This document shows positions 17,824 through 47,388 of a stretch of 64,000 nucleotides of DNA, piece after piece. The DNA is taken from assembly GCA_024278955.1 (NCBI GenBank), contig JAJRSE010000074.1:1-64000 (forward strand), read 5' to 3'. The notes under the pieces are model-generated. The model was not told the DNA's origin. It searched no databases and saw only the letters and a program-made list of their open reading frames with translations. This DNA comes from Planctomycetota bacterium (lineage in GTDB: Bacteria; Planctomycetota; Planctomycetia; Pirellulales; Lacipirellulaceae). Within the stretch, counting starts at the first letter, position 1. Each line of letters starts with the position of its first letter. Position numbers and translations under genes: made by a program.

Positions 17824-17955
17824 CCGGAAACAGACGGAGGGTTTACGTTTCTCGCCAGCAACAACATCCAGTCAGATATCCGAGTCGGCTTGGGCCTGAA
17901 TGACGAGTCCGACGACTACTTTGTTGGTACCGGGCTCACTGTTCGTTGGCACTAG
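17824..17955 (+). pseudogene. C-terminal relic of an outer-membrane beta-barrel protein
   Basis: Immediately after the symporter stop, and in the same frame, 43 codons read through to a TAG at 17953. They encode a strand-like tail with IQSDIRVGLGLNDESDDYFV and GTGLTVRWH. Alternating polar and hydrophobic residues, glycine-aspartate turns and an aromatic near the C-terminus are typical of beta-barrel ends, and similar tails close planctomycete porin-like proteins. No start or upstream portion remains, and the last 20 bases overlap the 3' end of the esterase gene on the other strand. I read it as the remnant of a deleted gene. Coincidental coding potential cannot be excluded. Confidence 0.5.
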
Positions 17956-18985
17956 AGCTGGTACTGCCAAATTGTTTTTCAAAAAACGCCAGCATTTTTG
18001 TAAAGCAATAATCGTTGACTACCTGAGCCGCATCCATGGTATGGGGCCAACCTTCTAGCGGATAATACTCGTGTTCTACGCCAGCTTCTTCCAAGGCCTT
18101 GTCAAGAATCTCGGCTTGTTCAATCGGTACCAAATCGTCGATCGAACCATGGAAAATCAACGTGGGAGAATCGTCGGCGGTCACAAAAGTAAGTGGCGAA
18201 CACCGCTTGTACAGCTCGGGCGCTTCCTCGTACGACTTGCCTAGGTAACGAGTAATCGTCTTATGGGTTCGAGCATAGGATTTCGTAACATCCACAGGTC
18301 CATACAGGTTGACAACGGCTTGCACGCGGCTGCTCACGTCTGCATTTCCTCCCGATCCCTCGAACTCTTTGTCGTCGGCCGAATAGCCGGTCATCATGGC
18401 CAAATGTCCGCCTGCCGATCCACCAACAATCGCGATCCGATTCGGATCGCCCCCAAACGACTCGGCATTCGCTCGCACCCAGCGTACCGCGCATTTCGTA
18501 TCTTCGATCGCAGCGGGGAATAAAGCAACATCGCGTAACCGATACGAGATGGTTGCCACGATATAGCCGCGTTCCGCAAATTTAATGCAGTAGTACCGAT
18601 AGTCGTTGCGCCCCCCCTTCGACCAGCCCCCCCCATGTACAAAAATCAAGACCGGGGGTGTTCCCTTGAGTTTCTTGGGAAGATACAAATCGAGTTTGAG
18701 CGACGTATCTCCACCGGTGCCGTACTCAATTCCTTCGCGAACCTCCACCAACTCAGAAAGAGGCAAGTCGACGTCCACCAATTTGAGGTGTCCCGTTGCA
18801 TAGGCGAGCATAATCATCTGCGATGACGAATACCCGGGGGGTGGCTCATTTCCTACTCCCGGTTTCGCATGGAGCACGGCCCTTGCGGTTACCAGCATGA
18901 GAAGCAGCAATACGAGTGATCCGATGCCAAGAAATTTGAATAGACGAACAAGCCGACGACGCGGCTTAGAAGGTTGCTTTACCAT
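17936..18985 (-). CDS. Membrane-anchored or secreted alpha/beta-hydrolase esterase
   Basis: The 349-residue product begins with a basic N-terminus and one hydrophobic segment (about residues 18-40), so it is exported or anchored. The hydrolase domain of the BD-FAE/carboxylesterase type shows the oxyanion motif HGGGW at 117-121 and the nucleophile elbow GGSAGGH with Ser190. The acid and histidine appear in FHGSIDDLVP and EGWPHTMD. Such enzymes cleave acyl or acetyl esters, often on polysaccharides. The start at 18985 is supported by GAGGTCC seven bases upstream; a GTG at 18997 would place the ribosome site inside the gene. It is convergent with the symporter and stands alone. Confidence 0.9.
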   Translation of the reverse strand: MVKQPSKPRRRLVRLFKFLGIGSLVLLLLMLVTARAVLHAKPGVGNEPPPGYSSSQMIMLAYATGHLKLVDVDLPLSELVEVREGIEYGTGGDTSLKLDLYLPKKLKGTPPVLIFVHGGGWSKGGRNDYRYYCIKFAERGYIVATISYRLRDVALFPAAIEDTKCAVRWVRANAESFGGDPNRIAIVGGSAGGHLAMMTGYSADDKEFEGSGGNADVSSRVQAVVNLYGPVDVTKSYARTHKTITRYLGKSYEEAPELYKRCSPLTFVTADDSPTLIFHGSIDDLVPIEQAEILDKALEEAGVEHEYYPLEGWPHTMDAAQVVNDYCFTKMLAFFEKQFGSTSSSANEQ

Positions 18986-19284
18986 GAAGGACCTCACTCT
19001 TTCTCGATCTGGGGTGTGTCTTCAAAACCAGTATTCGCTTAGTGCGTGCCGCACGGACGTGTTCTGGTGTCACGGCAGCGGCACTTTAGCGTCGAGTCGT
19101 ACTATGCATGAGCGGAGCACCCGTCTGGCGACTTGCTCCATTGTACACTATTCATTCTCTTCTTCCGGGGCTTACTTTCAATCCGTACAAACCCTGCTTT
19201 TCATCGCTCAGCCCGCCCCTTATGCGTCCGCTGGAAATCGCAGTTGGGAAACGGCATGGCACCCAACTCGAAATTTAAGCTGCA
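18986..19284. other. Intergenic region with partial repeat copy
   Basis: This 299-base gap contains no credible gene. At 19258-19283 it carries the right end of the dispersed palindromic repeat (GGCACCCAACTCGAAATTT followed by AAGCTGC), one base different from 6944-6969. A 7-bp inverted repeat GTGCCGC/GCGGCAC lies around 19039-19085. Neither strand shows a promoter I would defend. Confidence 0.45.
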
Positions 19285-20742
19285 CTAGCTTGCATCGGTT
19301 TGGCTTGCTGCGTTTAGCTCGGCTTGGAGATCCGAGATTTGGCGAGTGCTGAGAAATCGCCCTAGAAGCTTACGAGTGTCGGCGAACATTTTTTCGATTC
19401 GGGCTTGTACTTTAGGCTCCGTCGAGCGATTACGCTCGTTTCTTTCGGCAGCGGAGAGCAGCTGGGCAAAATATGCCCGCCCTGGCAGAGCGTCTAGTTG
19501 GCTGAGCAATTTCCGCGCTTCTGCGAGCCGGTTGTTGGCGGCCTGATCGCGTACGCGGGCGATCAAAATGTTTCGACGGGCAACAAGGTCGATTAGTTGT
19601 TCTCGTAGCGAGGTGATCGTGGCTTGGGCTTTGAGTCTTGCGGTGTCGTCGGCAATCGGCACTTCGACCAGAGAGATCGCTCCGGTTGCTACCGGTATTT
19701 TGGCTAGTAGTTTGCCATCGCTTCTTAAAAACAGTGTGCGAACACTTGCCGCACCGGGAGAGACTTCGATCGCTCCCCGGTTGTTGGTGAGGCCAAGCAG
19801 TTGGCTAGGCTGTTCGTCGGTATCTCGTTGAAAAACTTCGTAGCCAACTAAAGGCTGCGACTTGTCGTGACGAGCGTGAAATCGCACTCGTGTGCTTTGC
19901 TGTGTCTGGGGCAAGGCAATGGCAATGTTCTCGACGTTTGCTCGGCGTCGTACGCCAAATGGTTTTCGGATTCCAGAATGTACTCGGCAACGACCGGTGC
20001 CGTCTTGCATCTCTTCTAGGGTGAGGTAGGTCCAAGGGATTGGGCTGATGGTGTCCGGGCGAACTTCTTTGCGCCGAGTCTTCCGGATTTTCAGCGGCTG
20101 ATAGACGGTGCCAGGCTGGGCGAAGAGCGGTTCGTTTGATCGGCGTGGCAAGTTGCTTCCCTTGAAGTGGAGCGAAACGTGGCGATCGTCGTCGAGATCT
20201 CTGCGGATTTTTGCGATCGGCGCAAAGGTTTTTTTCAGCAGAGAAAAGCATTGTTCGGGAAGAGTACGAGGCTGGCGTGCTTGTTGTCGGAGAACAGGCC
20301 CCCAGCGATTTGTGGTCAGGTCGTGTTCGCGGCACGCGATGAGATAGCCTTCGGAATTGGCTATCACGGTGAGAACTAGCTGCTTATCGAAGCCAATTCC
20401 GGGTTCCATTTTTTCCAGCGTCGGCAGCTCATCCATTTGGTGTAAGAGAAGATGCTCGAAAGGGCCCGTTGCTGTTGAAAACTCTACCGACCAGAGCGGG
20501 AAGAGCGTTGCCTGGATTCGGCGTTCGAGATAGTTGGTTAGGTTTTTGCTCAGATTGACTTGGGGCTTTGCCGCAGAGTCGACGGCAAGGTGGATTTGGA
20601 TGTGGTAATTGGCAAATCCCCACTGCCGCTCGTCTGCCGCGTTTGCGCTACTCGGTAGGCAGAAGGCAAAAGTTAGAAGCATTGCAAGGGTATTCCCTAG
20701 CGGAATGCGGCAGGGAAATGGGGGAGCTGAACGGTTCATCAT
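19285..20742 (-). CDS. Secreted hypothetical protein, last gene of the envelope operon
   Basis: I do not recognise this 485-residue protein. It has an N-terminal signal peptide ending near SSANAADERQW, so it works outside the inner membrane. A mixed alpha/beta region (about 40-200) is followed by a long basic middle part and a C-terminal helical, coiled-coil-like region (about 360-470: LREQLIDLVARRNILIARVRDQAANNRLAEARKLLSQL). The ATG follows the stop of the solute-binding protein gene with no gap (TAGATGATG), so the two are translationally linked. It lies at the end of the ExbB/ExbD operon and presumably serves the same machinery. Confidence 0.8.
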   Translation of the reverse strand: MMNRSAPPFPCRIPLGNTLAMLLTFAFCLPSSANAADERQWGFANYHIQIHLAVDSAAKPQVNLSKNLTNYLERRIQATLFPLWSVEFSTATGPFEHLLLHQMDELPTLEKMEPGIGFDKQLVLTVIANSEGYLIACREHDLTTNRWGPVLRQQARQPRTLPEQCFSLLKKTFAPIAKIRRDLDDDRHVSLHFKGSNLPRRSNEPLFAQPGTVYQPLKIRKTRRKEVRPDTISPIPWTYLTLEEMQDGTGRCRVHSGIRKPFGVRRRANVENIAIALPQTQQSTRVRFHARHDKSQPLVGYEVFQRDTDEQPSQLLGLTNNRGAIEVSPGAASVRTLFLRSDGKLLAKIPVATGAISLVEVPIADDTARLKAQATITSLREQLIDLVARRNILIARVRDQAANNRLAEARKLLSQLDALPGRAYFAQLLSAAERNERNRSTEPKVQARIEKMFADTRKLLGRFLSTRQISDLQAELNAASQTDAS

Positions 20743-23148
20743 CTATTTGCTCGCTCCCAAAAATATGGACTTCCAAGAGGCAACGTCCTGGTAGATCGTC
20801 ACCGGTGCAGAGCGAATTCCTTGCAGCGTTTTTCGGTGGGCAAAAAAGTTGACGGTTTGCCAAAGCGGTACGACTGGCAAGTCGTAGTAAGCAACTTCGT
20901 GGACGTGCTGTAACCGCGTACGAGCTTCTTTCCAATTTCGGGCATGATCTACCGAGGCAAGCGCAAGGCTCATCGCCGGGCTGCAACTGCCGGCTGGCCC
21001 GTTTGGGCCGAGTAACCGGCGAAGATCGACCAAGGGCTCCCAGAGCGGAAACTCGGTGTATTTGAGATCGTAGTCGACTGGCTCGGCATCGGCGTAACGA
21101 GAAAGCTCAAGTAAATCGATAGGGATACCAATCGCATCGAGTTGGAGTTTGATCGTTTGACACGCAGCCCGCGCAAGTGGATCGGGAGGGTGAGCAAGGA
21201 CAAGGGGGGCGACCTCTCCAGCGGTAGGTTGACCGTCTTCGGGCGTTTCTTCGTCGTTTTTATTTCCATCCGACTTTGAAAGCGAGCTGCGTGCAACGGT
21301 GGCCAGCACGGCTGCGAGGCGGGGTTCGTAGGGACGCGGCTTGATCGATCGGTTGTAGGCGTAACCGAGCGGATCGCTTAGCGAAACGCCTGCGGGCAGA
21401 GGGCCACTAAGGATCTGAAATCCAGGGCGGACTTCTCCTCCGAGTAGTATGTCCTTCAGAATCTGAGGGCGATTGATGCCGTAACAAAGTGCGCGACGAA
21501 ACTCGCGTCGCCGCATCAAGGGCTTGGAATAATTTGGCACAAGGACATGAATCGTGGGGAGCCGGTAGGCCCCGACAACAACTCCCTTGATTTGACGGAT
21601 ACGGTCGATTTGCCAGGGGGCGATTCGCTCGAGGACATCGACGTTGCCACGCGACAGGGCTGTGATCGCTGCTTCTTCGCTGACAAAAATTTGCTCGACG
21701 ATTGAAGGAGAAGACTCGTGGTTGCCAGAGCGGTTGGGCTGTTCGTATCTTAGGACCTCTCGGGTGGCTTCGTCTGCAGCCACCCGGTAAGTTCCGGTAA
21801 AAGAGTCGTTTGAGGTGACGTTTCGCAGGGGAAACTGAAGTAAAGCCTCGGGTCTTACATGGGGCCGAAGCCAATGCAGGCGGATTTCGTTTCCGTTACT
21901 GATTGCCGTATCTTGCAACAAACCAGCAAACTCTTCACGAAAGTCGGGGCTGGAGAAACTGGCGTTCCTCATCATTTGCAGCGCGAGTCCCTCGGGAGAG
22001 ATTCCGGCTTCAAACGCTTGCTCGTTAAGATTCAAGGAAAGTTGGAGGCCCGAATCGTCGCTCTCTAAGCGGGCCCACTGGCAAGTGTAGATGCCTCCCT
22101 CGCCGCCAAAATCGGTGAGTTCAACAAAACGTGGGTTCGTGAGCTGCGAAACACGAGCCGTGGCTACGTCCGCTAGTTGAGTCGACGACCCCGAGGAGGC
22201 GGTTGAAGGCTTGCTATGTTGAGAGACACCGACGACGACCTGGGGCGACCGACGGTTGATCTCTTCCATAAGTTGTTTCGCGTCGGGGAGGTTGGGAAGA
22301 ATCGCAAGAGCTTGGCGGATGGCCTGACGAGCTTCGGAGTATTGGCCTTGCTTGAGGTTTTGTTTTGCAATGGCGAGCTGTTTTTCTGCACCAGTGCGGA
22401 ACTTTTTACGCCAGGTTTCTAACGAGCTGATTTTTAAGCGAGAAAATGCGGATTCAACCGCATCGAGAGAAGACCGAGCAGAGGCAAAGTCTTGTTTTGC
22501 AAGGTGCTTGGCAATCTGACGATCGGTAACCGCCTGAACTGCCTCGGCGAGCCTTCTGTGCGATGGATTCAAGTCGTAAAGTGCAAGTAAGATCGAAAGC
22601 GATTCGTCATAATTCTTCGCAGCAAAAGCATGAAAGGCATCGCCCTTGAGATATCGTTCGGTCGCAGCTTGCAAGCCGCTGAGTTTTGGATAGTGGTTAT
22701 GTAAAAACTGGAGGTAGGCATAGGCTTCGACGAAATTTTTCTTTTTGGTTTGTTTAATGGCCTCGCCGAGCAAAAGGTGTTCATAGAGTTCGATTTTCTC
22801 GATTGCCGCCCAAGGTACTGCGTACAGAACCGAAGGCTCGCTAACACGGTATAGCTTGAGATCTCCGCTTGTCGGATAGGGAGCAGGAACTTGTCGGCCA
22901 GGCAAATCTAGCAGTAGCGTCTTGAGGACTTCGCCATCATGCGATGTTTTGAGTGTGATGCGGTCGAAAGGGGGAAGATCGAGGAGTCGTTCGGCTTCTA
23001 CGGTTGTGGCTTGGGGAGTTGCCTGAGGAGCGGCTTCTTGTGCAAGCAGTAGAGACATATCTCCGAGAGCTAGAGCAGCGAAAACAGAGCGCAGCAGTAT
23101 CCTCAACAAGGATTTTGCATCACGACAAGGAGCTGTTTTGATTGGCAT
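20743..23148 (-). CDS. TPR plus family-5 solute-binding protein
   Basis: The 801-residue product has a signal peptide (cleavage near SLLLAQEAAPQ) and a helical TPR-like region (about 100-290). From about residue 320 it carries an ABC-type extracellular solute-binding domain of family 5, the oligopeptide/dipeptide/nickel group. The recognisable parts are FRRALCYGINRPQILKDILLGG, YNRSIKPRPYEP and the closing LPVVPLWQTVNFFAHRKTLQGI. Normal family-5 binding proteins have about 520-560 residues and sit beside permease and ATPase genes. Here there is a long extra front domain and no transporter gene in the window. It lies 19 bases after the propeller gene. It may sense or present peptides in the envelope complex rather than feed an importer. 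Confidence 0.88.
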   Translation of the reverse strand: MPIKTAPCRDAKSLLRILLRSVFAALALGDMSLLLAQEAAPQATPQATTVEAERLLDLPPFDRITLKTSHDGEVLKTLLLDLPGRQVPAPYPTSGDLKLYRVSEPSVLYAVPWAAIEKIELYEHLLLGEAIKQTKKKNFVEAYAYLQFLHNHYPKLSGLQAATERYLKGDAFHAFAAKNYDESLSILLALYDLNPSHRRLAEAVQAVTDRQIAKHLAKQDFASARSSLDAVESAFSRLKISSLETWRKKFRTGAEKQLAIAKQNLKQGQYSEARQAIRQALAILPNLPDAKQLMEEINRRSPQVVVGVSQHSKPSTASSGSSTQLADVATARVSQLTNPRFVELTDFGGEGGIYTCQWARLESDDSGLQLSLNLNEQAFEAGISPEGLALQMMRNASFSSPDFREEFAGLLQDTAISNGNEIRLHWLRPHVRPEALLQFPLRNVTSNDSFTGTYRVAADEATREVLRYEQPNRSGNHESSPSIVEQIFVSEEAAITALSRGNVDVLERIAPWQIDRIRQIKGVVVGAYRLPTIHVLVPNYSKPLMRRREFRRALCYGINRPQILKDILLGGEVRPGFQILSGPLPAGVSLSDPLGYAYNRSIKPRPYEPRLAAVLATVARSSLSKSDGNKNDEETPEDGQPTAGEVAPLVLAHPPDPLARAACQTIKLQLDAIGIPIDLLELSRYADAEPVDYDLKYTEFPLWEPLVDLRRLLGPNGPAGSCSPAMSLALASVDHARNWKEARTRLQHVHEVAYYDLPVVPLWQTVNFFAHRKTLQGIRSAPVTIYQDVASWKSIFLGASK

Positions 23149-23167
23149 AGCGACTGGGGATTTATTA

Positions 23168-26100
23168 CTAGGGGCGGTCGACGATCAAGAGTGTGCCATC
23201 GTAGGAAGACAGAACCAACCGATTGGCAAATGGCACCGGGCCCGCCACCACGGGGTGGTCTAGCTGAACGTAGGCAGCCTCCGATCCGTCGTCCACGGCA
23301 AGACGCGAAAGGCCGCCTTGCTGCCAGAGAACAAAAATCGAACCCTCACTCGAAATTGGCATGCCCGTCAGACGGCCATGCTGCAATGGCTGACGCCAAG
23401 CGATTTCAGCCTGAGTGTCGAGGCAGACAAGCTCTTGGGTGTCGGTGGCAAAAAGAACACGGTCGCCCACGACGAAGGGGCCCCATTGGATCTGAGCACC
23501 TAAATCTAGCGGTGAGCTGGCTTCGAGCGAAGGTAACTGGAACCGAGCGAGCTGTCCCTTGGCTGTGCCTGCACAAACCAAGTTGCCAACGACGGCAAGT
23601 CGTGTGACGAGTGGCGAAGGTCCAACTTCTGCGACGGCTTCTGAGGCAAGATGCGGCTTAGGTTCGGAGAGTCGGGCGACTAAATAGATATTCTCAACTC
23701 CATCGCTCAAAACCAGACGAGATTTATCACCAGTTCCGAATACCGCAGGAGCTAACCACTTGTAGCTGGTATTAGGCGTAAGGGCTGGTTGAAATGGGCT
23801 CCCCAATTGTTTGCCCGATTGGTTGTCGTACAAAAACACTTGCCCGACTTCGGTGGGGACCACAAAACCATCTTCCCAGAGCACGGGGACGGAACTTGCG
23901 GGACCGGGAAGCGAAATAGCTTGCAACGCCCCGGGCGGCGTCGCCGAGTGGTAGTGGAGTACCGTCTTGGCACCGGAGGCCCCGATAGCTAAACGCCCTT
24001 GGCCCAAATCAACGGAACCGGTTAGCGGGGGGATGGGGGAGCTTGTCGAAGCTAGGCTTGCAGGCTGATCTTGGACCCGGCGCATCATCGAGTTTCGGTC
24101 GAGCAGATAAGTGGCGCCGGAAGAGGTTGCGGTTATGATCTGCTTTTTAGCGAGATCCACTCCCAGCGATCCAGCCGGTGGTACGGCAAGCTCGGTTTCC
24201 CAAAGCGCCTCGCCCGTGTTTGGCTTCATCGCTGCGACAATCGCTCCCGCTCTGCCGGCGGGGCGGCGGACATGAATCAATAAATTTCCGACCTTCTGAA
24301 GTGGGTAATCAAAGATGTCTCCCAAGTAATCGCTATCCAAGTTACGAACGGGAAGTCGATTGCCAGTTGGCAAAATTTCAAGTTTGTTGAGTCTTGTGCC
24401 TGCGACCCAGACATGCCCTTCATCCAGAAGCCCAAAGCGGGCAATGGGCGGACCGCTTTCGGGATCTCGGCTCGCTAGTAGCGTAAGCGATTCCTCGCCC
24501 GAGGCAGCCCCTACCTCGTACACTGAAACTTGTCCGGTGCTGGTGAGTGAGACAACTCGCCTTCCTGCGGAGAGCAATCTTGTGTTGATCAAACCTTCTT
24601 GTCGGCGGACAGACGCGGTCTCGATGACTTGGCCTTCGGAGTCGGTTGCGAGTACACGAAGCTGGCTGGTTTCGGCACCCGTGTTGACCGCAGCAAGAAC
24701 TTTGTTGAGTACCACAATCGGAGAAGTTGAGACGCCGCCCTGCTCGTGGCCGAGGTAATAGACCCCTAGGCAAGAATGATCTTTTGCCGAGAGGGTAAAC
24801 AGACTTGCTTGGCTACCGACGACGTAGATACGTGTTGCCTGCTTATTAACCGCCGGGGCGACGGCTAGCGGCTGGCTAAACTGGACATAACCCGTACGGT
24901 TGCCATTGGTAGGATCAACCAAGTGAAGCTTTCCCGATTGTTCCGCGACAAGTATCTGCTGGCCCAATGCGACAGGTCTAAAAACCGGGCCCTCGAAGGC
25001 AAGCCGCCAAACTATTTTTCCGGTATCACTCGCAAGCCGGAGCAATTCGTGATGAACTGCGTCGACGACTAGCACATCGCCTTGGGGCAGACGAAACGGG
25101 GTGGCGTCGGGGTCGAAACCTACAAATTTTCGCCAAAGCAAAGCACCGTCGCTTTGGTTTAGTCCGTAAATCGCTCCTTCGATACGGACGGCAAGCCTGC
25201 TCTCGGAATTGGGAACCGATTTGCCTCGACGCTCGGCGAGCGCAAGCGTGGCGACAATCGGGCTTGATCGCGGCGTTGTGTCTGCCGACTTCAGCTCCTC
25301 GACCAAGCGAACTTCAAGCTGTTCGGCTGCCGAAATTTCCTTGACTTTGCTTGCAAGTGTCTCGTTGTTGATTAGCCCCGGGGCAGTTGCGAGTAATTCG
25401 CGGTAGACCCGATAGCCAGCGGCGGTGTCGCGACTGTCGATAGCCGCTTGCATGTTAGCCATCGCGCTGGCGAGTTGGGTTTTCTGTAGTTGCCCGCGTT
25501 CGACACGCCGAAGCGTTTGGCTGATCTGTTCGAGGACAATTTCGTCGCGAAAAGTCTTGGGAATAAATTTGGTGTTCGCACAAAGCGCAAGCGTTGTCTT
25601 CGTTTTTTCGAGAAGCAAAGCGACCGCTTCTGGGCTCTCGGCTTTCTCTGCTTGGCTGGCTAGCCCTTCCGCGATTTTGGGAAGCAATGTGGCTAAATCT
25701 CGCTGAGCCAAGTTGAAATCGGGTTCGTCTTCGATTTCGTCAAGCACGCGTTGCGCTGTCTCTAACACGTTGGCATACTGGGTAGCGCCGCTGGTTGCTT
25801 TCCAGAGCTGGGCCATCCCCAACTTCACTCGGGCGGTGCTGTATTGCGGGTGGTGAGGGAAATTTTCGACGAATCGCTCATATTGATTGATGGCTTGGGT
25901 GTAGGAACTGCCATCAAAAAAATCACTTGCTTCGGCAAGAATCGCGTCGGAGTTCTCTCGGTTGAGTAGCACCCCAAACACAATGCCCGTGACCAATAAG
26001 ACGACAAGCCCTCCTCCGCCCAAGAGCAGCAAGGGAGAGTCCCATTCGTTCTTTTTCTTCCGATTTTTCTTCTGCGATTTTTTCTTTTTCTTCTCCGGCG

Positions 26101-26566
26101 TAGCCTGCTGGATGCGACTCGATTCGGGCGAATTTCCTGCAAAGGGCTCGTTGGTTGACACCGAATCGGCAATGAAACTCCCAAGTTCTTCCTGCGATTC
26201 TGCTTCTCCCATTGTGGGGCCAACAGGTTCGGCGAGGACGCTCTCTTCCGACTCGATCGGCTTGAGGGTCGGAATCTCCTCCTCTGGCGAGGAATGTTCT
26301 TGAGCAGGAGTCATTTCCGAGGGGCGAGGCGGGGGGGCTATGCCCAAGATGCTCGACTCGGCGTTGATCGCAACAGTAAGCGTGGTATCGAGCAACCGCT
26401 TGGCTTGCTGGCGGGTGAGAACTTCTTTCTTGACAAGAAACTTTAGGACCGATTTGGCCGTGATGCGATGTTGACCTCGCTGAACTTTTTCTCGAATGCC
26501 TTCGAGAACGGTCGGGGGAACAAGGTCTCGCTGTTCCAGAATGTCGAGGAAATCTTCGGTGTTCAT
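23168..26566 (-). CDS. Membrane-anchored PQQ-like beta-propeller protein
   Basis: This 1132-residue protein has a cytoplasmic N-terminal helical module (about residues 1-65: TEDFLDILEQRDLVPPTVLEGIREKV...KFLVKKEVLTRQQAKRLL) of a kind I associate with planctomycete proteins. A low-complexity linker follows, then a lysine-rich block (about 155-172) and one membrane helix (about 178-202). The external part begins with TPR-like helices (about 205-400), followed by a PQQ-type beta-propeller (about 430-1130) with repeated motifs such as GALLWRKFVGFD, GKIVWRLAF and GEALWETELAV. The positive block just before the helix fixes the N-terminus inside. It most likely scaffolds protein contacts rather than binding PQQ. 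It sits between exbD and the solute-binding gene. Confidence 0.88.
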   Translation of the reverse strand: MNTEDFLDILEQRDLVPPTVLEGIREKVQRGQHRITAKSVLKFLVKKEVLTRQQAKRLLDTTLTVAINAESSILGIAPPPRPSEMTPAQEHSSPEEEIPTLKPIESEESVLAEPVGPTMGEAESQEELGSFIADSVSTNEPFAGNSPESSRIQQATPEKKKKKSQKKNRKKKNEWDSPLLLLGGGGLVVLLVTGIVFGVLLNRENSDAILAEASDFFDGSSYTQAINQYERFVENFPHHPQYSTARVKLGMAQLWKATSGATQYANVLETAQRVLDEIEDEPDFNLAQRDLATLLPKIAEGLASQAEKAESPEAVALLLEKTKTTLALCANTKFIPKTFRDEIVLEQISQTLRRVERGQLQKTQLASAMANMQAAIDSRDTAAGYRVYRELLATAPGLINNETLASKVKEISAAEQLEVRLVEELKSADTTPRSSPIVATLALAERRGKSVPNSESRLAVRIEGAIYGLNQSDGALLWRKFVGFDPDATPFRLPQGDVLVVDAVHHELLRLASDTGKIVWRLAFEGPVFRPVALGQQILVAEQSGKLHLVDPTNGNRTGYVQFSQPLAVAPAVNKQATRIYVVGSQASLFTLSAKDHSCLGVYYLGHEQGGVSTSPIVVLNKVLAAVNTGAETSQLRVLATDSEGQVIETASVRRQEGLINTRLLSAGRRVVSLTSTGQVSVYEVGAASGEESLTLLASRDPESGPPIARFGLLDEGHVWVAGTRLNKLEILPTGNRLPVRNLDSDYLGDIFDYPLQKVGNLLIHVRRPAGRAGAIVAAMKPNTGEALWETELAVPPAGSLGVDLAKKQIITATSSGATYLLDRNSMMRRVQDQPASLASTSSPIPPLTGSVDLGQGRLAIGASGAKTVLHYHSATPPGALQAISLPGPASSVPVLWEDGFVVPTEVGQVFLYDNQSGKQLGSPFQPALTPNTSYKWLAPAVFGTGDKSRLVLSDGVENIYLVARLSEPKPHLASEAVAEVGPSPLVTRLAVVGNLVCAGTAKGQLARFQLPSLEASSPLDLGAQIQWGPFVVGDRVLFATDTQELVCLDTQAEIAWRQPLQHGRLTGMPISSEGSIFVLWQQGGLSRLAVDDGSEAAYVQLDHPVVAGPVPFANRLVLSSYDGTLLIVDRP

Positions 26567-26675
26567 TTTCGGTGGCTCAAATAATGCGGGCGGTTGCCTG
26601 CGATTCTCGCAAAAGTAATTTAGAAAAACCGGGGTTAATCAAACAGCTTTGTCAGGGGGCTCAAACCAGGGAGAG

Positions 26676-27173
26676 CTACAAATCAAGATCGCCATCCTCG
26701 TAGTTCATCAAGCGAATCTCCTCCATGCCGACTCCCGAGCCTGCGTCCAGTGCCGCAACGACAAACTCGTGTCTCGAATCGCCGTTAGCTTGGACCAGCA
26801 ATTTCGCGGGTCCGCTGCTGTTGTCGCCTCGCGCTTCTCGTAGTTTCACAAGCAAGTCTTGTTTGCTGAGAACTTTTTGCTCGGCCTCCCAGGCGGGGGC
26901 CCCGACCCAAAAGACGTTGTCGCCGTCGATGCGAATGACAACGGAGTCTTCTTCGAGATCTTCGACGCTTTGAGATGCCGCGACTTCGTCTCCCACGGGC
27001 GGGACTTCAATTGATTTTTGCAACGCAAATGCGGCGGTAATCATAAAGAAAATAAGCAGCAGGAAAGTGACATCGACCATCGGGGTGAGGTCGAGCTCAT
27101 CTTCTTCCTTCCGCTCGCGCAGCCTGAGGGGGGGCTGATCGCTCGGGGGCAGGTTGTTTGAAAAGTTTTTCAT
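26676..27173 (-). CDS. ExbD/TolR family protein (second copy)
   Basis: This is a 165-residue single-pass protein of the ExbD/TolR family, the stator-associated partner that couples proton flow through ExbB/TolQ to envelope work. The helix ELDLTPMVDVTFLLLIFFMITAAF (about residues 26-49) contains the essential membrane aspartate in PMVDVTF. The periplasmic domain ends GVGMEEIRLMNYEDGDLDL. It lies 18 bases after the other exbD-like gene, and having two non-identical ExbD copies is common where a heteromeric pair is used. Confidence 0.93.
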   Translation of the reverse strand: MKNFSNNLPPSDQPPLRLRERKEEDELDLTPMVDVTFLLLIFFMITAAFALQKSIEVPPVGDEVAASQSVEDLEEDSVVIRIDGDNVFWVGAPAWEAEQKVLSKQDLLVKLREARGDNSSGPAKLLVQANGDSRHEFVVAALDAGSGVGMEEIRLMNYEDGDLDL

Positions 27174-27191
27174 GCGATAGGTGTTACTGGG

Positions 27192-27683
27192 TCAGTCGGA
27201 TTCTAGCACGGCGAGATGAATCTTGGTTCCTTCAACGGCCGACACGGCCTTGATGATTCGAGCAACTTCGCGTGAAGCGACGTTGCGATCGGCTTTAATG
27301 ATTACGCTTTCTTTACCTTCTTGCTGACGAGCCTTTTTGAGGGCTTCTTCGATCAGCCCACGCTGCTGCTGGCTGTCGTCGGGCAAACGTGCGGATTCGA
27401 TTTTCCCATCGGCAAGATAAACGGGAGCCAAGTCGGCCCCCTCGTCGCTCAGGGTGATGATTACCGCTTCTCTTTCGCCTACCCCCTTGCCATGCCGGGC
27501 CGAGGGCAATTCGATCGACGATTTTTGGTCGGGTGTGGAGCAAACAAGAAAGAAAATCAACAGGAGGAACGTGATGTCGATCATCGGCGTGATGTCCATG
27601 TCGGCCTCTTCACGCTGCTTGCGTTTGCGCAGCAGGGGCCCTGGAAAGGCGTCGGGGACCGGGGTGGTTGCGTCTGTCGACAT
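27192..27683 (-). CDS. ExbD/TolR family protein (first copy)
   Basis: The 163-residue product has the same ExbD/TolR plan as its downstream neighbour: a basic cytoplasmic N-terminus, a helix with the proton-path aspartate (DMDITPMIDITFLLLIFFLV, about residues 28-47) and a periplasmic domain with EGKESVIIKADRNVASREVARIIKAV, which matches the family's conserved strand-helix segment. It is 63 bases after the exbB-like gene and 18 before the second exbD. The two copies differ considerably outside the membrane helix, so this is an old duplication. Confidence 0.93.
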   Translation of the reverse strand: MSTDATTPVPDAFPGPLLRKRKQREEADMDITPMIDITFLLLIFFLVCSTPDQKSSIELPSARHGKGVGEREAVIITLSDEGADLAPVYLADGKIESARLPDDSQQQRGLIEEALKKARQQEGKESVIIKADRNVASREVARIIKAVSAVEGTKIHLAVLESD

Positions 27684-27746
27684 TACAAAAAACTTCCATT
27701 GATTGCCCGCGAAAGATCGCGGAGTTCTGTGAAAACACGAGTCGTA

Positions 27747-28379
27747 CTAAGAGCCCGGAATGGCAGTTTTAAGGCTTTCAAAAAGGCGTCTTAGTCCGAG
27801 CCCAATCAGATCTTCGGTCTTACTTAGGCGAATGTTGATGCTCGCGGTACACAAAACAAGCGGAACCGCGATTGCCAGTCCGCAAGCCGTGGTGATGAGA
27901 GCAAATTGGATATCCTCTGCCATTTGGATGGTGTCGACTTTATCGCCGCTGCTAAGGTTTGCAAATGCGCCCATCATTCCGACCACGGTGCCAAGCAGTC
28001 CGATCATCGGTGCGCTTTTGATTACCGTGTTGACCCAGCTCAGACGGTGGTCGATATCGGTGAGCACGTCTTGCTGGAATCGTTCGGCAACCCGATGCTG
28101 GAGTTTTTCGTAACCTAGTTCGCGATTGTCGATCGCGTAGAGCGCGAGCTGGGGCATCGCCCGGCGGTCGTCGTCGCAAAGTTCCATTGCTGCGCTGTAG
28201 TTTCTGGCAACGAGCGTTTCTTCTAGCTCGCTAAGAAACTCATCCTGTTCCTCTTCGCTCGCAAAACGAGTGTTCGCCACGCGTTGCCAAACCATGAGAA
28301 CACAATAGGCTCCCCAAAGGGCGAGTCCTGCTAGTAACGCATAAATTGCGTAACCAGCGGCAAGAAATAAAGTTTCCAT
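27747..28379 (-). CDS. MotA/TolQ/ExbB proton channel family protein
   Basis: The 210-residue product has three membrane helices (about 7-29, 118-142 and 160-185) and the family's conserved loop and helices, NTVIKSAPMIGLLGTVVGMMGAF and DIQFALITTACGLAIAVPLVL. These form the channel of ExbB/TolQ, in which proton flow drives a periplasmic partner. The cytoplasmic loop (about 30-115) has the usual acidic and helical character. It directly precedes the two exbD-like genes and follows a single-pass protein that could play the TonB or TolA role. No TonB-dependent receptor gene is seen in the window. Confidence 0.94.
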   Translation of the reverse strand: METLFLAAGYAIYALLAGLALWGAYCVLMVWQRVANTRFASEEEQDEFLSELEETLVARNYSAAMELCDDDRRAMPQLALYAIDNRELGYEKLQHRVAERFQQDVLTDIDHRLSWVNTVIKSAPMIGLLGTVVGMMGAFANLSSGDKVDTIQMAEDIQFALITTACGLAIAVPLVLCTASINIRLSKTEDLIGLGLRRLFESLKTAIPGS

Positions 28380-28412
28380 CGTTGGGTTACTTCACTTTCG
28401 AGTAAGGGAAAT

Positions 28413-29270
28413 CTAAAAATACTTCTGGTCGAGAACTTCAAAGGTAAATTGGTCGCGGCCGGGTACGACCGTGAAGACGGTTTCTCGAATTGTGTTCACG
28501 TCGCGATCTTCGGAATACTTTTTTTCAAGTGTCCAAAGGACGCTTTCTAGTTCAAACGGATAAAAAAGAAGCACGATGGTCCCATGGCGAGCAATATCGG
28601 CCTTTCGAGCCAAGCGGTTGGTCAAAGCGGGCATCGGCCCGTCGGCTGCGGAAGTGTAGCCTCGTGTTTCCTTGCCGGGCTTCTCGCTTCGTTGCTTCGG
28701 GGTTGTGCTGACTTCGGACGCATAGTGGACCAAATTATCGCGACCTAAGACGCCGATTTCGATTTTATGAAAATCGAGCCACCGGGCAAATTCGGCTTCG
28801 TTGTCGGGATCAAAACGAATCTTCCATCGTTGCCAGCGAGGGATTCTTTCGACAACGCCATCTCCGCCGGGGCCAGCCATCCTTGCATCTCCCAGTCCTT
28901 TGCCCTTGCCGGCCTTATCCTCCGCTTCGAGCGTCTCGTCCGAAAGCAAAGCCTGCTTGGTCGAAGCGGCGCTGGTCAGGGCGTCTAGGGTGTCTTGAAG
29001 TTGAGGCTCGGAGAGATCGGGCGCTTCCTCCGCGCCTGGCGGATCGGGTTCGGTGGCGAGCCCCTGGTTGGCATTGGCTGAGGTCGCCTCGACCGGGACA
29101 ACCGGGATGGGCTCGATCGACGGGAATCTTCGGTTGGCAAAGAAAACCACCAACAGTCCAGAAACCGTAAGCCCCACCATCAGCAACAGAGCGATCAACA
29201 GCGTAGACGTGCGATCGTAGGTGTTAACCGATAACCGGTATTTTCGTTTTGTTGCTTGGGCTTTTGGCAT
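28413..29270 (-). CDS. Single-pass envelope protein with TonB-like layout
   Basis: This 285-residue protein has a short basic cytoplasmic start, one membrane helix (about residues 23-45: TLLIALLLMVGLTVSGLLVVFF) and a proline- and acid-rich linker (about 50-150, PSIEPIPVVPVEATSAN). It ends in a compact C-terminal domain (about 155-285). That order resembles TonB or TolA. I see no TonB C-terminal motif such as YP, so homology is not shown. It sits 33 bases before the exbB-like gene and 54 after the toroid gene. The C-terminal domain ends FTVVPGRDQFTFEVLDQKYF. The role as mechanical partner of the ExbBD motor is inference from layout and position. Confidence 0.8.
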   Translation of the reverse strand: MPKAQATKRKYRLSVNTYDRTSTLLIALLLMVGLTVSGLLVVFFANRRFPSIEPIPVVPVEATSANANQGLATEPDPPGAEEAPDLSEPQLQDTLDALTSAASTKQALLSDETLEAEDKAGKGKGLGDARMAGPGGDGVVERIPRWQRWKIRFDPDNEAEFARWLDFHKIEIGVLGRDNLVHYASEVSTTPKQRSEKPGKETRGYTSAADGPMPALTNRLARKADIARHGTIVLLFYPFELESVLWTLEKKYSEDRDVNTIRETVFTVVPGRDQFTFEVLDQKYF

Positions 29271-29324
29271 AGGTAGCGTTTGGTGATTTCTTGAGCGTTT
29301 GAATTGAACGGTAAACCATGCACC

Positions 29325-30974
29325 TTAGGGCAATAAAGGGGCGTCGGGGCGGATTCGATGGTACCAGACTTTCCACTTATCGAGGGCGTCGAATTGCTGG
29401 GTCTCGTTAAAGTTGTCGGGGAGCCCAAACCCACCAAATCGTCGGCTGACAAAACGAAGGCCATCACGAGCTTCACGTACGACCCGATGGTCTGGATCGG
29501 TCATCGCGTAGAGAAGAGTCGGCACGTAATCCAAGTCTCGAAGCTGCGAGAGAGCACGGACCGAGAGCAAGCGGGCGTCTGGAACTCCGCTCTTGACGAT
29601 TTGTTGCAACCTTCTAGCTTCCTCAGGTCCTGCCAGAGAAACTTGTAAAGAATCGGCATTGCTCAGCAACGATTCAAATCCCTCGTTGCCTGCATCTTCG
29701 AGAGCTTTGAGTAACTGATTCATCTCGGCGGGCTTCTTTTCGGCAACGAGCCTGCCTTGCTTCATTTTCATTCGTGAGAGGTCTGCTTGAAGACCTCGCC
29801 CTCCGACCAAAGTCCCCTGGCCGAGGCTCGATCGGATACTCTTCTGTGTCGATCTCATAAGAAAAAGCACCGCAAAAGCGGTCGAGCAGGGCTTTCCCGA
29901 TCTGCCAAGCCAGCTTCCATCCTCCGCTTGTTTTCTCTTGAGGTATTGATACCCGTCCTGATACCACTTCGGTTCGTCGGGAGCATCTCCGGTTAAGAGT
30001 TCATCAAAGCTTTTGAAGCGTTCGAGCGAGTAGAGAAGGTAGCAGGGATAGTGCCAGGTACTTAACAAACTAGCCTGGGAATTTTTTTGATACCATTTTC
30101 GTCCCCTGGTAATGGCTTCGTTCAGGCGGCCTCGATCAACGGCACTGCCATGGAGTGTGCGCACCACTTTGTCTGCGGAGGCTTCAACTCGCTTTAAGGA
30201 AGAAGGGAGATGGTTATTTTGAGTTGCCGCATCTTGCGGAGTCACTTCCGTGGTCAATCTTCCGGCAGGCTGAGTTAGCCCCATAACATTCGCAAGAATC
30301 ATCGTGCTGCCGAGTCCTGCTGCCAGCATGCTTAGCGAAGTTTCGTTTTGTTTGACAAGCGATTCGCCTTGGGGATCTTTTCCCTGGTATCCCCATACCC
30401 CTGAGGGGTCTTGGGTACGCAAGAGCCAGTTGAGACAGTTCTCGACGGAGTCGACCTTAGGAGAGATCCCGGCTTGGAGCATCTGCCAGTAGCTCAGTGC
30501 TGCGTATTGTGTTTGCGAAGTGTCTCCTGTGGCAGAATTCGGGTATCCCCAACCCCCATGAGATTTCTGGGCCTGCGCAAGCGCCCCAGCGTAGCGGCTA
30601 ATCAACTCGCGGTGTTTGGAAGGGTCGAGTTCTGAAAGAAAGATTACCGCTAATCCCCAGTGGTAAACCCTTTCTCGACCAAGCTTCAAGGGATCGGTCG
30701 ACTTGCAAGCCTGTAATGCATCGGCAATGCGAGGATGATCGGGAGAGACGCCTTCTTTTATGAACGCCAAGGCAATCAAGCACTTGCCACCCAGGCGACC
30801 CTCTGAGGTGGTTTCAAGAAAGTTGAGGCCTTTCTTAATCAGCTCGCGAACCTCAGGGCTTTCGGGCGTGACCGCTTTGGTATCTCCAGCAAAAATTCCC
30901 TGGCAAAGAATTAAGGAGGCGAGAATAAAAAGAGTTTGGCAACGGAATGCAAAGCGTCTGGGCTTTGACCGCAT
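29325..30974 (-). CDS. Secreted prenyltransferase/squalene-oxidase-repeat toroid protein
   Basis: The 549-residue product starts with a signal peptide (MRSKPRRFAFRCQTLFILASLILCQGIFA) and continues with alpha/alpha-toroid repeats of the terpenoid-cyclase and prenyltransferase type (about 25-400). Examples are GLNFLETTSEGRLGGKCLIALAF, HGGWGYPNSATGDTSQTQYAALSYWQML and LRTQDPSGVWGYQG. A C-terminal HEAT-like helical segment (about 450-530) follows. In planctomycetes such secreted toroids are common; enzymatic activity is not shown and I see no DXDD acid motif. I take 30974 as start because the signal peptide begins there; the frame is open to an ATG at 31028. It is the first gene of the ExbBD operon. 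A second toroid gene lies at 37217. Confidence 0.85.
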   Translation of the reverse strand: MRSKPRRFAFRCQTLFILASLILCQGIFAGDTKAVTPESPEVRELIKKGLNFLETTSEGRLGGKCLIALAFIKEGVSPDHPRIADALQACKSTDPLKLGRERVYHWGLAVIFLSELDPSKHRELISRYAGALAQAQKSHGGWGYPNSATGDTSQTQYAALSYWQMLQAGISPKVDSVENCLNWLLRTQDPSGVWGYQGKDPQGESLVKQNETSLSMLAAGLGSTMILANVMGLTQPAGRLTTEVTPQDAATQNNHLPSSLKRVEASADKVVRTLHGSAVDRGRLNEAITRGRKWYQKNSQASLLSTWHYPCYLLYSLERFKSFDELLTGDAPDEPKWYQDGYQYLKRKQAEDGSWLGRSGKPCSTAFAVLFLMRSTQKSIRSSLGQGTLVGGRGLQADLSRMKMKQGRLVAEKKPAEMNQLLKALEDAGNEGFESLLSNADSLQVSLAGPEEARRLQQIVKSGVPDARLLSVRALSQLRDLDYVPTLLYAMTDPDHRVVREARDGLRFVSRRFGGFGLPDNFNETQQFDALDKWKVWYHRIRPDAPLLP

Positions 30975-31318
30975 CGTCCCGGCTAATGGCGGGCAGTTGC
31001 AAAGCGCGCATCTGTACATATCAGCCATAGAAGACCTGTTGATTCTCTACCCGTGTTCCAAGAAAGATAGGCGGCAACAAACACGAAGCAACCAGTTGCC
31101 TAGCCTATGGGATTGGCTACTTAGCAAGGTAGGCTGCTGGAGATTCCGGCGAGAATTGCCTCATGGTTTCGCCGGAATAGGATGCTTGCACCAGTTGGGC
31201 TCATTAGACTGGCAGAAACCCGAATGTCAAGCAAGCGAAAGCCGGCGAGGAGAATTGACATCCCGCTCGCAGCAACTTACTATGTGGGGCTTCCAGACAT
31301 TCGGCAGAGTGCAAGGAA

Positions 31319-31391
31319 GGTCAGGTAGCTCAGTTGGTAGAGCAATGGACTGAAAATCCATGTGTCGGCGGTTCGAGCCCGCCCCTGACCA
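31319..31391 (+). tRNA. tRNA-Phe (GAA anticodon)
   Basis: A complete 73-base cloverleaf is visible. The acceptor stem GGTCAGG (31319-31325) pairs with CCTGACC (31384-31390), followed by discriminator A at 31391. The anticodon stem ATGGA/TCCAT encloses the loop CTGAAAA, with anticodon GAA at 31352-31354, and the T-arm has GTTCGAGCC. The D-arm AGCTCAGTTGGTAGAGC is standard. The 3' CCA is not encoded. The run CTTTTTCTT just after the gene may serve as its terminator. It stands alone between two divergent large operons. Confidence 0.98.
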
Positions 31392-31462
31392 CTTTTTCTT
31401 AGAGCCTACTATTCTTTGAGGCTAGCCAGATCGCTTCGCGATGAGGTCACCTTGCCCTCGCT

Positions 31463-31687: not shown

Positions 31688-32008
31688 CTATAAAACCATG
31701 TCTTTCAGCTTCTTTAGCGGGCGAACCTTTACCACATTTCGGGCAGGCTTTGCCTTGAAAATGGTCTTCTCTCCCGTGAAAGGATTGACACCCTCTCGCT
31801 CGGGGGTTGCCGGCTTGTTTTGAACAACGATCTTGCACAGGCCTGGCAGGGTGAACGTCAGTGCGCCGGTCTTGCCGAGTGCCTTGCCGATTTCATCGTT
31901 CAAGGCATCGAAGACAGCGCTGACGTCTTTTTTCGCCAATCCGGTGCTCTCCGAGATGTTGTTGTAAATTTCAGTCTTGGTAGGTGGCTTTGCTGCGGCT
32001 TCTGTCAT
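31688..32008 (-). CDS. HU/IHF-family DNA-binding protein
   Basis: The 106-residue product is a small DNABII-family protein of the HU type, which bends and compacts DNA as a dimer. The recognised parts are TKTEIYNNISESTGLAKKDVSAVFDALNDEI (the helical base), LPGLCKIVVQNKPATPEREGVNPFTGEKTIFKAKPA (the beta-arm, with the conserved arm-tip region NPFTGE) and the final strand-helix VVKVRPLKKLKDMVL. It is slightly longer than HU because of an alanine- and proline-rich start and a lysine-rich end. The start at 32008 has a perfect AGGAGG eight bases upstream, which rules out the long upstream extension to 32188. Confidence 0.94.
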   Translation of the reverse strand: MTEAAAKPPTKTEIYNNISESTGLAKKDVSAVFDALNDEIGKALGKTGALTFTLPGLCKIVVQNKPATPEREGVNPFTGEKTIFKAKPARNVVKVRPLKKLKDMVL

Positions 32009-32560
32009 TTTTGAAACCCTCCTCAGTGTTTGTGGGGTGCTTGTGGGTGGTGTTTGTAAATGGTCTGGATATTCGGGACGTCCTAGAAATCTAGCATCCC
32101 GTGGACCCTTAGTGCTGACTTTTAAGATTGCTGGCACTAAATTACAAGCCGTATTGACAGAAATACCGGCAAAAACAGGGTATTTCAATGAAATCGTCCG
32201 GAAAAAGAGCCGACGGCGAGGAAATAGGCGCTTTTGGAGGATGGGGGTGACCGAAGTAGATACCCCCCGTTGGGGTGGTTTTAATCGAAACCCTCAACCG
32301 AATTGATCTATTTTGACATGCGATGTAAACTTATGATGGCAAATACGTTACGCCACTTGTGCTGTCTCAGTGCCAGCTAGGTTCCTAGTCACTGCGCTCT
32401 TGGAAGAGCTTTTTGGGAACTTTGCAAGGCCGTCCAGCTTCCAAGTTATGTGTCGCAGCCTGTTGCTATGCCAATTACCAGTCGTATGTCGCTGTGACTA
32501 GCTCTGGTCGGCCCTTTTCGGCATCAGGATGCTGGCAGAAGGAGAAAGGACGGTCCATCA
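32009..32560. other. Divergent intergenic region, 552 bp
   Basis: This gap separates the HU-like gene (minus) from the giant propeller gene (plus) and should contain both promoters. No gene is seen. It holds an 8-bp dyad at 32160-32186, a CCCC/GGGG hairpin near 32264-32278 followed by TTTT, and TTGACA at 32315-32320 without a well-spaced -10 box. The plus-strand gene has a clear ribosome site AAGGAGAAAGGA at 32539-32550. Confidence 0.4.
32160..32186 (-). promoter_or_regulatory. Dyad overlapping a candidate HU promoter
   Basis: GAAATACC (32160-32167) and GGTATTTC (32179-32186) form a perfect 8-bp inverted repeat with an 11-base centre. On the minus strand a possible TTGAAA and TATTTC pair lies 17 bases apart across the same dyad, about 150 bases before the HU-like start. 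It could be a regulated promoter. The -10 match is only three of six bases. Confidence 0.3.
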
Positions 32561-37174: not shown

Positions 37175-37216
37175 CTAGGGTTCGCGTTTGTCGCTTGTTT
37201 CGTCGATCAAAGGAAA

Positions 37217-38320: not shown

Positions 38321-38374
38321 GTTCAATAGCAGCTTCTGATTAACAACCACCTACGAAACAATTGGCATTACGGA

Positions 38375-39430
<1,056 letters not shown>

Positions 39431-45089: not shown

Positions 45090-45091
45090 AA

Positions 45092-47350: not shown

Positions 47351-47388
47351 CCGCCCAACGTCGAAACCCGCTGAATAGCGAATTGAAC

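Follow-up and report, generated by a model that had tools for sequence, protein, structure and literature searches.

An eight-gene ExbB-ExbD-ExbD operon of the Planctomycetia as a candidate trans-envelope force machine

The DNA analysed here is a stretch of 64,000 nucleotides from a member of the Planctomycetota, in the following called the window, which belongs to a draft genome of 4.6 Mb in 146 contigs; its relatives place it in the order Pirellulales. According to the list of open reading frames (ORFs), eight genes on the minus strand of the window, named A to H in the order of their transcription, span positions 19285-31028. Together these genes probably encode one proton-driven trans-envelope force machine of the ExbBD/TolQR/AglRQS kind, which is specific to the class Planctomycetia and independent of a receptor. 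Its motor is formed by one ExbB-family protein (C) and two ExbD-family proteins (D and E), which are accompanied by a toroid protein (A), a single-pass membrane protein (B), a propeller protein (F), a protein with a solute-binding fold (G) and a protein without known relatives (H). An earlier reading of the same DNA, made from its letters alone (the original prediction), had the coordinates and contents of these eight co-directional genes right, and the gaps between them are indeed small (54, 33, 63, 18, 109, 19 and 0 bases from A to H, i.e. 0-109 bases), with H starting one base past the end of G. Its statement that the operon lacks a TonB-dependent receptor and an ATP-binding cassette (ABC) permease was borne out by the Pfam search of the eight genes. 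For the coupling of the proton gradient of the inner membrane to the outer membrane in planctomycetes without TolB and FtsZ, the operon is a conserved and compact candidate, and the question is open to single-gene deletion in a laboratory planctomycete. In the following, single letters denote genes or their products, and letters with numbers denote loci (L), genomes (G), contigs (C) and families (f).

Gene order and co-occurrence of the parts

The survey of gene order that the original prediction had proposed was run with two baits. With G as bait, 224 of 297 genomes of the class matched at a threshold of 1e-3, and 40 hand-chosen places were fetched. At 19 of these 40 loci the genes A to H were found in order (at one of them with two copies of B), at seven the series ran from B to H and at one from C to H. 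The order A-B-F-G-H was present at five loci, F-G-H at three (one located at a contig end and one carrying a fragment that was scored as A), G-H at three and G alone at two. A relative of H was located beside G at 38 of the 40 loci. With A as bait, 233 stretches of named genomes matched, and the best 80 of the 215 confirmed relatives were kept. As 28 of the 80 loci were too short and were set aside, 52 loci with at least 9 kb after A were evaluable. At these 52 loci, A to H in order were found 23 times, A to G nine times, A-B-F-G-H four times and A-C-D-E-B-F-G-H twice, and five loci carried different sets, two of them running from A to F, one from A to E and one from A to C, and the fifth having overlapping D and E. 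Altogether, at least two further operon genes were present beside A at 43 of the 52 loci. For these counts, repeated letters (tandem B, split A) were collapsed and genes cut by the end of a locus were counted, and a missing H or G may equal the end of the locus. The two samples are not additive, since the 40 G-anchored and the 80 A-anchored loci overlap (L009 and L065, L007 and L050).

The recurrence of the eight-gene order exceeds chance. Identities to the proteins of the window range from 26 to 60% for A, from 20 to 66% for F and from 20 to 65% for G across the relatives, and because the same order is kept at 20-66% protein identity it does not reflect recent shared descent alone. The cultured species with operon loci comprise Bythopirellula polymerisocia, Lacipirellula limnantheis, Adhaeretor mobilis and Blastopirellula marina. 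As far as seen in the available sequences, the gene set appears to be restricted to the class Planctomycetia. The profile of B matched 112 of 118 genomes of this class at 1e-6, with weak matches (1e-9 to 1e-21) in many genomes of the families f95 and f98, and in a draw of 199 genomes from the whole phylum all 12 matching genomes were the source genome itself or belonged to the same order or the same class. Thus, the "planctomycete-type energised envelope machine" of the original prediction is supported and can be narrowed to this class.

The motor and the periplasmic parts also occur together where they are not linked. Eleven genomes lacked C-D-E at the fetched G locus, and all of them carried a C ortholog elsewhere (174-279 bits; the next best hit reached 130 bits) with D and E adjoining it. 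The parts are truly apart in 10 of these 11 genomes, and in three of the 10 the unlinked series is C-D-E-F or B-C-D-E-F, with G-H at another place. The eleventh genome, G202, probably has a single operon that the assembly has split, since each of its two pieces breaks off within F at the end of a contig. Additionally, the presence of C (E value of at most 1e-40) and G (E value of at most 1e-8) was tabulated for 118 genomes of the Planctomycetia, where genomes unnamed in the match lists (15 for C, 53 for G and 66 for the receptor domain Plug considered below) were scored from their absence there. Both genes were present in 81 genomes, both were absent in 32 and five genomes were discordant (Fisher p 5e-23).

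Motor subunits and partner proteins

The assignment of an ExbB protein with two ExbD proteins in the original prediction was confirmed by Pfam matches of C to MotA_ExbB (7.3e-22) and of D and E to ExbD (1.2e-23 and 4.5e-20). Among the NCBIfam models C is closest to TolQ (6.8e-17; 61.9 bits, below the cut-off of 221), and D and E score best with TolR (52.1 and 46.1 bits, below the cut-off of 127.3). In each of 28 aligned members, the transmembrane (TM) residues Asp36 of D and Asp34 of E as well as Thr131 and Thr164 of C are kept, which we take to be functional positions of the motor. D and E are two distinct ExbD families: D scores 212 bits with its own profile and 67 with that of E, E scores 216 bits with its own profile and 64 with that of D, and 156 ExbD ORFs were sorted by their profile scores into 78 of the D type, 76 of the E type and 2 ambiguous ones. 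Since D and E represent two separate families, we infer a heterodimeric D/E axle.

Two other contigs of the source genome carry motor genes as well. On contig C129 (L190, 3719-8811), a TPR gene, ExbB and ExbD are followed by the gene of a 636-aa membrane protein that contains a toroid of the squalene-cyclase type (2.7e-9) and, close to its N-terminus, a hydrophobic stretch with a His; as this toroid protein adjoins ExbB-ExbD, toroids stand beside motors more than once in this genome. Contig C132 (L189, 6880-12971) harbours a second motor of one ExbB and two ExbD proteins, before which lie a TPR gene (346 aa) and a gene of 950 aa, and no relative of B was found at this locus with the B profile.

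Protein B combines a TM segment at about residues 24-42 with a Gly-rich linker of about 94 residues and a conserved C-terminal domain of about 146 residues. The TonB-like single-pass protein of the original prediction holds in this layout but not in the C-terminal domain: TonB_C was absent from the Pfam result of the window copy and from the families listed (25 of 34) for 56 aligned members, and hhalign gave a probability of 0.5% for a match of B with the source genome's own TonB. A von Willebrand A domain was likewise found by sequence scans neither in the window copy nor among the families listed (25 of 34) for the 56 members at E values of up to 1. The window copy has no Pfam match at all, and the family has no significant match in Pfam or the Protein Data Bank (PDB); its best values, 0.009 for a single member in Pfam (DUF4854) and an E value of 0.048 for the profile against the PDB, were taken as chance. 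Residue 19, just before the TM segment, is acidic in all 56 aligned members (Asp in 48, Glu in 8). This invariant acid prompted the idea that B is an ExbD-like helix inside the pore, which was set aside because the acid precedes the segment 24-42 by some five residues, while Asp36 of D lies inside its segment 31-49. Tandem duplicates of B were seen in L009/L065, L089, L106, L107 and L113.

The proteins F, G and A were recognised by domain matches which agree with the original prediction of a membrane-anchored propeller, a TPR protein with a family-5 solute-binding domain and a toroid of the squalene-oxidase type. F matches PQQ_2/BamB in Pfam (8.3e-22), and its profile matches BamB structures (about 2e-19) and BamD-type (YfiO) TPR (5e-6) in the PDB; its single TM segment comprises residues 179-197. 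Among 14 relatives of F from outside the order of the source organism, 13 have FHA as their cytoplasmic N-terminal domain, and Pfam listed no FHA domain for the F proteins of the other 14 alignment members, the window copy included. G of the window matches SBP_bac_5 (3.6e-14) together with a weak TPR match, and SBP_bac_5 is present in 20 of 20 aligned members. The G profile matches, with its positions 352-747 of 784, the structure of a peptide-type binding protein of an ABC transporter (2.5e-20), and a hydrophobic stretch is located at residues 17-35 of the protein. In A, which is read as a scaffold, Pfam found SQHop_cyclase_C (9.7e-9) and, below the cut-off, HEAT_2 (2.7e-4). The PDB matches of its profile were squalene-hopene cyclase (4.5e-13, positions 97-211) and HEAT/alphaRep chains at about positions 456-519, and its N-terminal hydrophobic stretch spans residues 28-46.

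H was called an unknown secreted protein in the original prediction. The first part of this description agrees with the searches: the sole Pfam match of the window copy has a value of 0.096, and the family has no significant match in Pfam or the PDB, its best values (E 0.027 for the profile against the PDB; 0.002 for a single member against SEN1_N in Pfam) being taken as chance. The chance PDB matches of the B and H profiles fall in the linker or against repeat proteins. The secretion of H is only probable, as it was judged from the look of the N-terminus; the window copy lies below the hydropathy threshold, which 20 of 39 family members pass. With B and H, the operon adds two families without a significant Pfam or PDB match.

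Several observations weigh against one conserved machine with B as its force transducer. A was found alone at nine of the 52 evaluable loci, scored within the locus only. The genomes G248 and G268 carry C without G, and G230, G250 and G253 carry G without C at the thresholds given above; moreover, presence follows families as blocks, so that the Fisher p value of C and G overstates independence. No genome of family f95, which probably corresponds to the Gemmataceae, reaches the threshold for C, and therefore the machine as defined here is not needed by every planctomycete. In the tree of ExbB proteins, from which the loci L060-L080 and L110-L126, the duplicates L004 and L130-L140 and pieces of fewer than 110 residues were left out, the operon copies and the unlinked copies of C form one clade of 73 tips (including one paralog and one short copy), but with midpoint rooting its local support is 0.545 and its placement hence weak. 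This clade does not include the ExbB proteins next to B in L174, L175 and L188. Neither an outer-membrane barrel nor a Pal-like lipoprotein was found among the eight genes by Pfam. Finally, TonB and TolA are described in the parts seen of PMC12204202 as docking on their motors via a TM His motif, and such a His is present in 1 and missing in 55 of the 56 operon-type B proteins, which thus may bind the motor in another way or fail to bind it.

The last point is to be read together with the distant relatives of B. Of 18 further B loci (two of which, L185 and L186, are not strongly diverged), three show B and an ExbB-ExbD-ExbD trio arranged tail to tail, and a second B-ExbB pair is located on contig C22 of G202. 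A TM His is found in 11 of these 18 proteins, e.g. in the motifs LLHV or FLHV, if the TM segment is taken as the most hydrophobic stretch of 21 residues within the first 160, a choice that looks wrong for L177. Judged from its layout, and from the TM segment in these distant relatives, B looks like a transducer of the TonB/TolA class that has a C-terminal domain of its own, and the operon clade looks like one with a changed docking signature.

Some of these observations would also fit a reading without a single machine, in which the eight genes are regulated together but encode envelope components with separate tasks, and C-D-E is a generic motor placed beside them by chance. A stands alone at nine of the 52 evaluable loci, C-D-E can leave the cluster, and a diverged motor subtype is located between A and B in the clusters of L058 (Lacipirellula limnantheis) and L083 (C with 232 and 260 bits, compared to mostly more than 300 bits), which is an apparent exchange of the motor inside a conserved cluster. 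However, the motor and G co-occur in the 10 of 11 genomes where they are unlinked and across the 118 genomes, and this reading is considered improbable.

Layout of the locus and neighbouring genes

The coordinates and assignments of the eight genes are given in Table 1. A hydropathy scan assigned a single TM segment to each of B, D, E and F and N-terminal signal-like segments to A and G; C has two hydrophobic regions, of which the first consists of two overlapping windows.

Table 1. Coordinates, strand, length and assignment of the genes A to H in the window
Gene	Position	Strand	Length	Assignment
A	29325..31028	-	567 aa	secreted squalene-cyclase-type alpha/alpha toroid with C-terminal HEAT repeats
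B	28413..29270	-	285 aa	single-pass protein with Gly-rich linker and conserved C-terminal domain; proposed force transducer
C	27747..28379	-	210 aa	ExbB/TolQ-family proton channel subunit
D	27192..27683	-	163 aa	first ExbD/TolR-family subunit
E	26676..27173	-	165 aa	second ExbD/TolR-family subunit
F	23168..26566	-	1132 aa	cytoplasmic N-domain that matches no Pfam family in the window copy, one TM segment, periplasmic TPR-like region and BamB-like propeller blades
G	20743..23148	-	801 aa	secreted protein in which a TPR region is joined to an almost complete family-5 solute-binding fold
H	19285..20742	-	485 aa	probably secreted; fold without known relative

Scans for promoter-like sites (5 observed, 4.8 expected) and for terminator-like sites (29 observed, 18.6 expected) were both uninformative, and an Rfam search of the whole window returned a tRNA-Phe as its sole match and no other RNA element. 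This tRNA-Phe (31319-31392, plus strand) lies directly upstream of the operon and is followed by a gene for an HU-type DNA-binding protein (31688-32188, minus strand), relatives of which were found in 16 of 120 loci. Beyond it, a divergent operon (32561-42524, plus strand) is arranged head to head with A-H and encodes a PQQ-TPR protein of 1537 aa, a toroid protein of 367 aa, MoxR, DUF58 and BatA. For its first gene, 16 of 120 loci hold a relative, and seven of these are among the 41 A-anchored loci that extend 6 kb or more upstream of A; the divergent arrangement was seen in L007, L008, L020, L021, L023, L047, L050, L054, L066, L067, L081 and L091, among others. Downstream of BatA follow two large ORFs of 771 and 567 aa (45035-49086, plus strand), which had no Pfam match at the thresholds used. 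On the other side, a search of the 120 loci at 1e-15 gave no relative of the gene next downstream of H (17936-18997), the number of loci reaching that far past H being uncounted. Near the edge of the window, a sigma-54 activator with FHA and GAF domains is encoded at 1653-3707 (minus strand).

Mechanism, output and relation to known systems

For the machine, the following mechanism is proposed, in which all steps beyond the motor itself are inferred. Five ExbB subunits (C) would surround the D/E heterodimer, and proton flow would turn or rock this axle. The single-pass protein B would dock on the motor through a putative contact and thereby move its linker and C-terminal domain in the periplasm, where B would act on an assembly of F, G, the toroid A and H as a periplasmic load or column. 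F would serve as a membrane-anchored propeller with a cytoplasmic FHA or other N-terminal domain, and where this domain is FHA, the machine may be gated from the cytoplasm.

The output would probably consist of work on the envelope and not of the import of nutrients. As a tentative first choice, it may be the upkeep of the outer membrane and the wall, similar to that by Tol-Pal but with other parts, in a lineage without TolB; transport of the kind known from Agl and Nfs is ranked second. The loss of ftsZ in the Planctomycetia is stated in the parts seen of PMC10632474. In a more speculative version, to which a rather low probability is assigned, the Planctomycetia, in which no TolB_N was found and ftsZ is lost, would have built a proton-driven outer-membrane machine of their own: the heterodimeric-axle motor would pull B on a periplasmic column of G, A, H and an FHA-controlled F, which would replace TolA, TolB, Pal and CpoB. 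In families with an FHA-bearing F, if not in others, the cytoplasm would then switch the envelope tension through protein phosphorylation. The Agl-like transport and the macromolecule uptake discussed below are other outputs of the same machine and thus overlap with the reading of the operon as a force machine.

An ABC importer with a family-5 binding protein has the domain of G in common with the operon and differs in its permease and ATPase, which are absent from the eight genes. An ABC ATPase encoded in the window at 13420-14241 adjoins SufBD genes. ABC-type uptake was rejected, as there is no permease among the eight. A different kind of uptake would be driven by the motor itself, whose power would bring peptides or polysaccharides into the periplasm, G being the binding protein. 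The family-5 fold in all aligned G proteins speaks for this output, and it would explain the uptake of dextran that is sensitive to carbonyl cyanide m-chlorophenylhydrazone (CCCP), and perhaps the crateriform structures: as far as PMC5394234 was seen, 816 CCCP-treated Gemmata cells showed no uptake, dextran was also taken up by Planctopirus limnophila, and crateriform complexes join both membranes. However, no outer-membrane channel is present among the eight genes, and the CCCP result comes from Gemmata obscuriglobus, while no f95 genome has a C ortholog at the threshold used. The latter objection is not strong and is softened by f95 genomes which have a diverged B, in three cases beside an ExbB-ExbD-ExbD trio. 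An output in macromolecule uptake is weakened by these points and is regarded as quite unlikely.

The Ton system shares with C, D and E an ExbB/ExbD-family motor with the conserved Asp and Thr positions. It differs in its transducer, since B lacks TonB_C, and in its receptors. The TonB-receptor domain Plug was detected in 32 of the 118 genomes, and among the 84 G-positive genomes 26 had Plug and 58 did not (Fisher p 0.17 for an association of Plug with G); the Pfam model would overlook receptors whose plug has diverged too far. Membership in the Ton system was rejected on this cross-table and on the missing TonB_C of B. The possibility named in the original prediction, that the ExbB and ExbD proteins serve a TonB receptor found elsewhere, was thus checked: the source genome does have two receptor plugs and one TonB, all on contigs other than that of the operon, and on contig C77 some 2 kb separate the TonB from a receptor plug. 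Their presence and the TM His in 11 of the 18 further B proteins could point to a Ton system in disguise, with the trio energising receptors encoded elsewhere and B as a variant of TonB, but with the frequent absence of Plug, its missing association with G and the lack of TonB_C this is very improbable.

The likeness to Tol-Pal consists in motor subunits that are nearest to TolQ and TolR among the NCBIfam models, below the cut-offs, and in the combination of single-pass, propeller and TPR proteins in one operon, which Tol-Pal (TolQ-TolR-TolA-TolB-Pal-CpoB) shows according to the parts seen of PMC12204202. In contrast to Tol-Pal, no match to TolA, TonB or OmpA/Pal was found among the eight by Pfam, the propeller is of the BamB type and membrane-anchored, and the toroid, the family-5 solute-binding protein and H are extra. 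The two OmpA places of the source genome are on other contigs, one of them near a place labelled by us as MotA-like. TolB_N was found in none of the 118 genomes (3 of 14 controls were positive, namely E. coli, Caulobacter and Bacteroides), by which membership in Tol-Pal was rejected. This is in line with PMC8871954, in the parts seen of which the Tol-Pal system of Planctomycetes is described as largely reduced.

Force transducers with von Willebrand A domains (vWA) are encoded beside TPR, tolQ and two tolR genes in bacteria of the Planctomycetes-Verrucomicrobia-Chlamydiae (PVC) group, according to the passages seen of PMC12204202. Common to them and the operon are the sequence of a TM helix, a linker and a C-terminal domain, the neighbouring ExbB with two different ExbD proteins, and a PVC host. 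In contrast, no von Willebrand match is listed for B, the operon-type B lacks the TM His, and the partners A, F, G and H are absent from the description of the transducers in these passages.

In the Myxococcus motor, as described in the parts seen of PMC3169522, AglR is of the ExbB type and AglQ and AglS are of the ExbD type, GltG combines FHA with TonB, and TPR proteins take part. Agl-Glt/Nfs and the operon thus have in common the make-up of one ExbB and two ExbD proteins, an FHA-bearing membrane protein and TPR partners. Based on this likeness, the motor could be an Agl/Nfs-like transporter that drags a complex of the envelope along the cell or sets an adhesin or polymer of the surface in motion, and the FHA domain of F in the relatives outside the order would correspond to that of GltG. 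On the other hand, B and F are without TonB_C (none was listed for F by the domain scans), F has BamB-like blades, there is no barrel among the eight, and no FHA was found in F within the order of the source organism; in addition, the parts seen of PMC3169522 contain no counterpart of the family-5 solute-binding protein, the toroid and H. As an output, such transport is unlikely. The claim of the original prediction that the operon has no clear counterpart in the standard Tol or Ton systems stands in so far as membership in both was rejected, and it is slightly too strong given the motor and the FHA partner shared with Agl-Glt.

Among the titles, opening parts of abstracts and passages of the listed papers by which the literature was judged, no published description of this operon was recognised. 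In the main text of PMC10632474, which deals with gene essentiality in Planctopirus limnophila, the searched terms are absent. In R. baltica, the exbB/exbD genes RB12053 and RB12055, which may or may not be part of this operon, are salt-induced according to the parts seen of PMC2754498. Within this scope, the motor is of a known kind, and its set of partners, its restriction to one class and the two families without relatives (B and H) appear new to us. As these partners differ from those in Ton, Tol and Agl, the operon adds to the range of processes that such motors may power.

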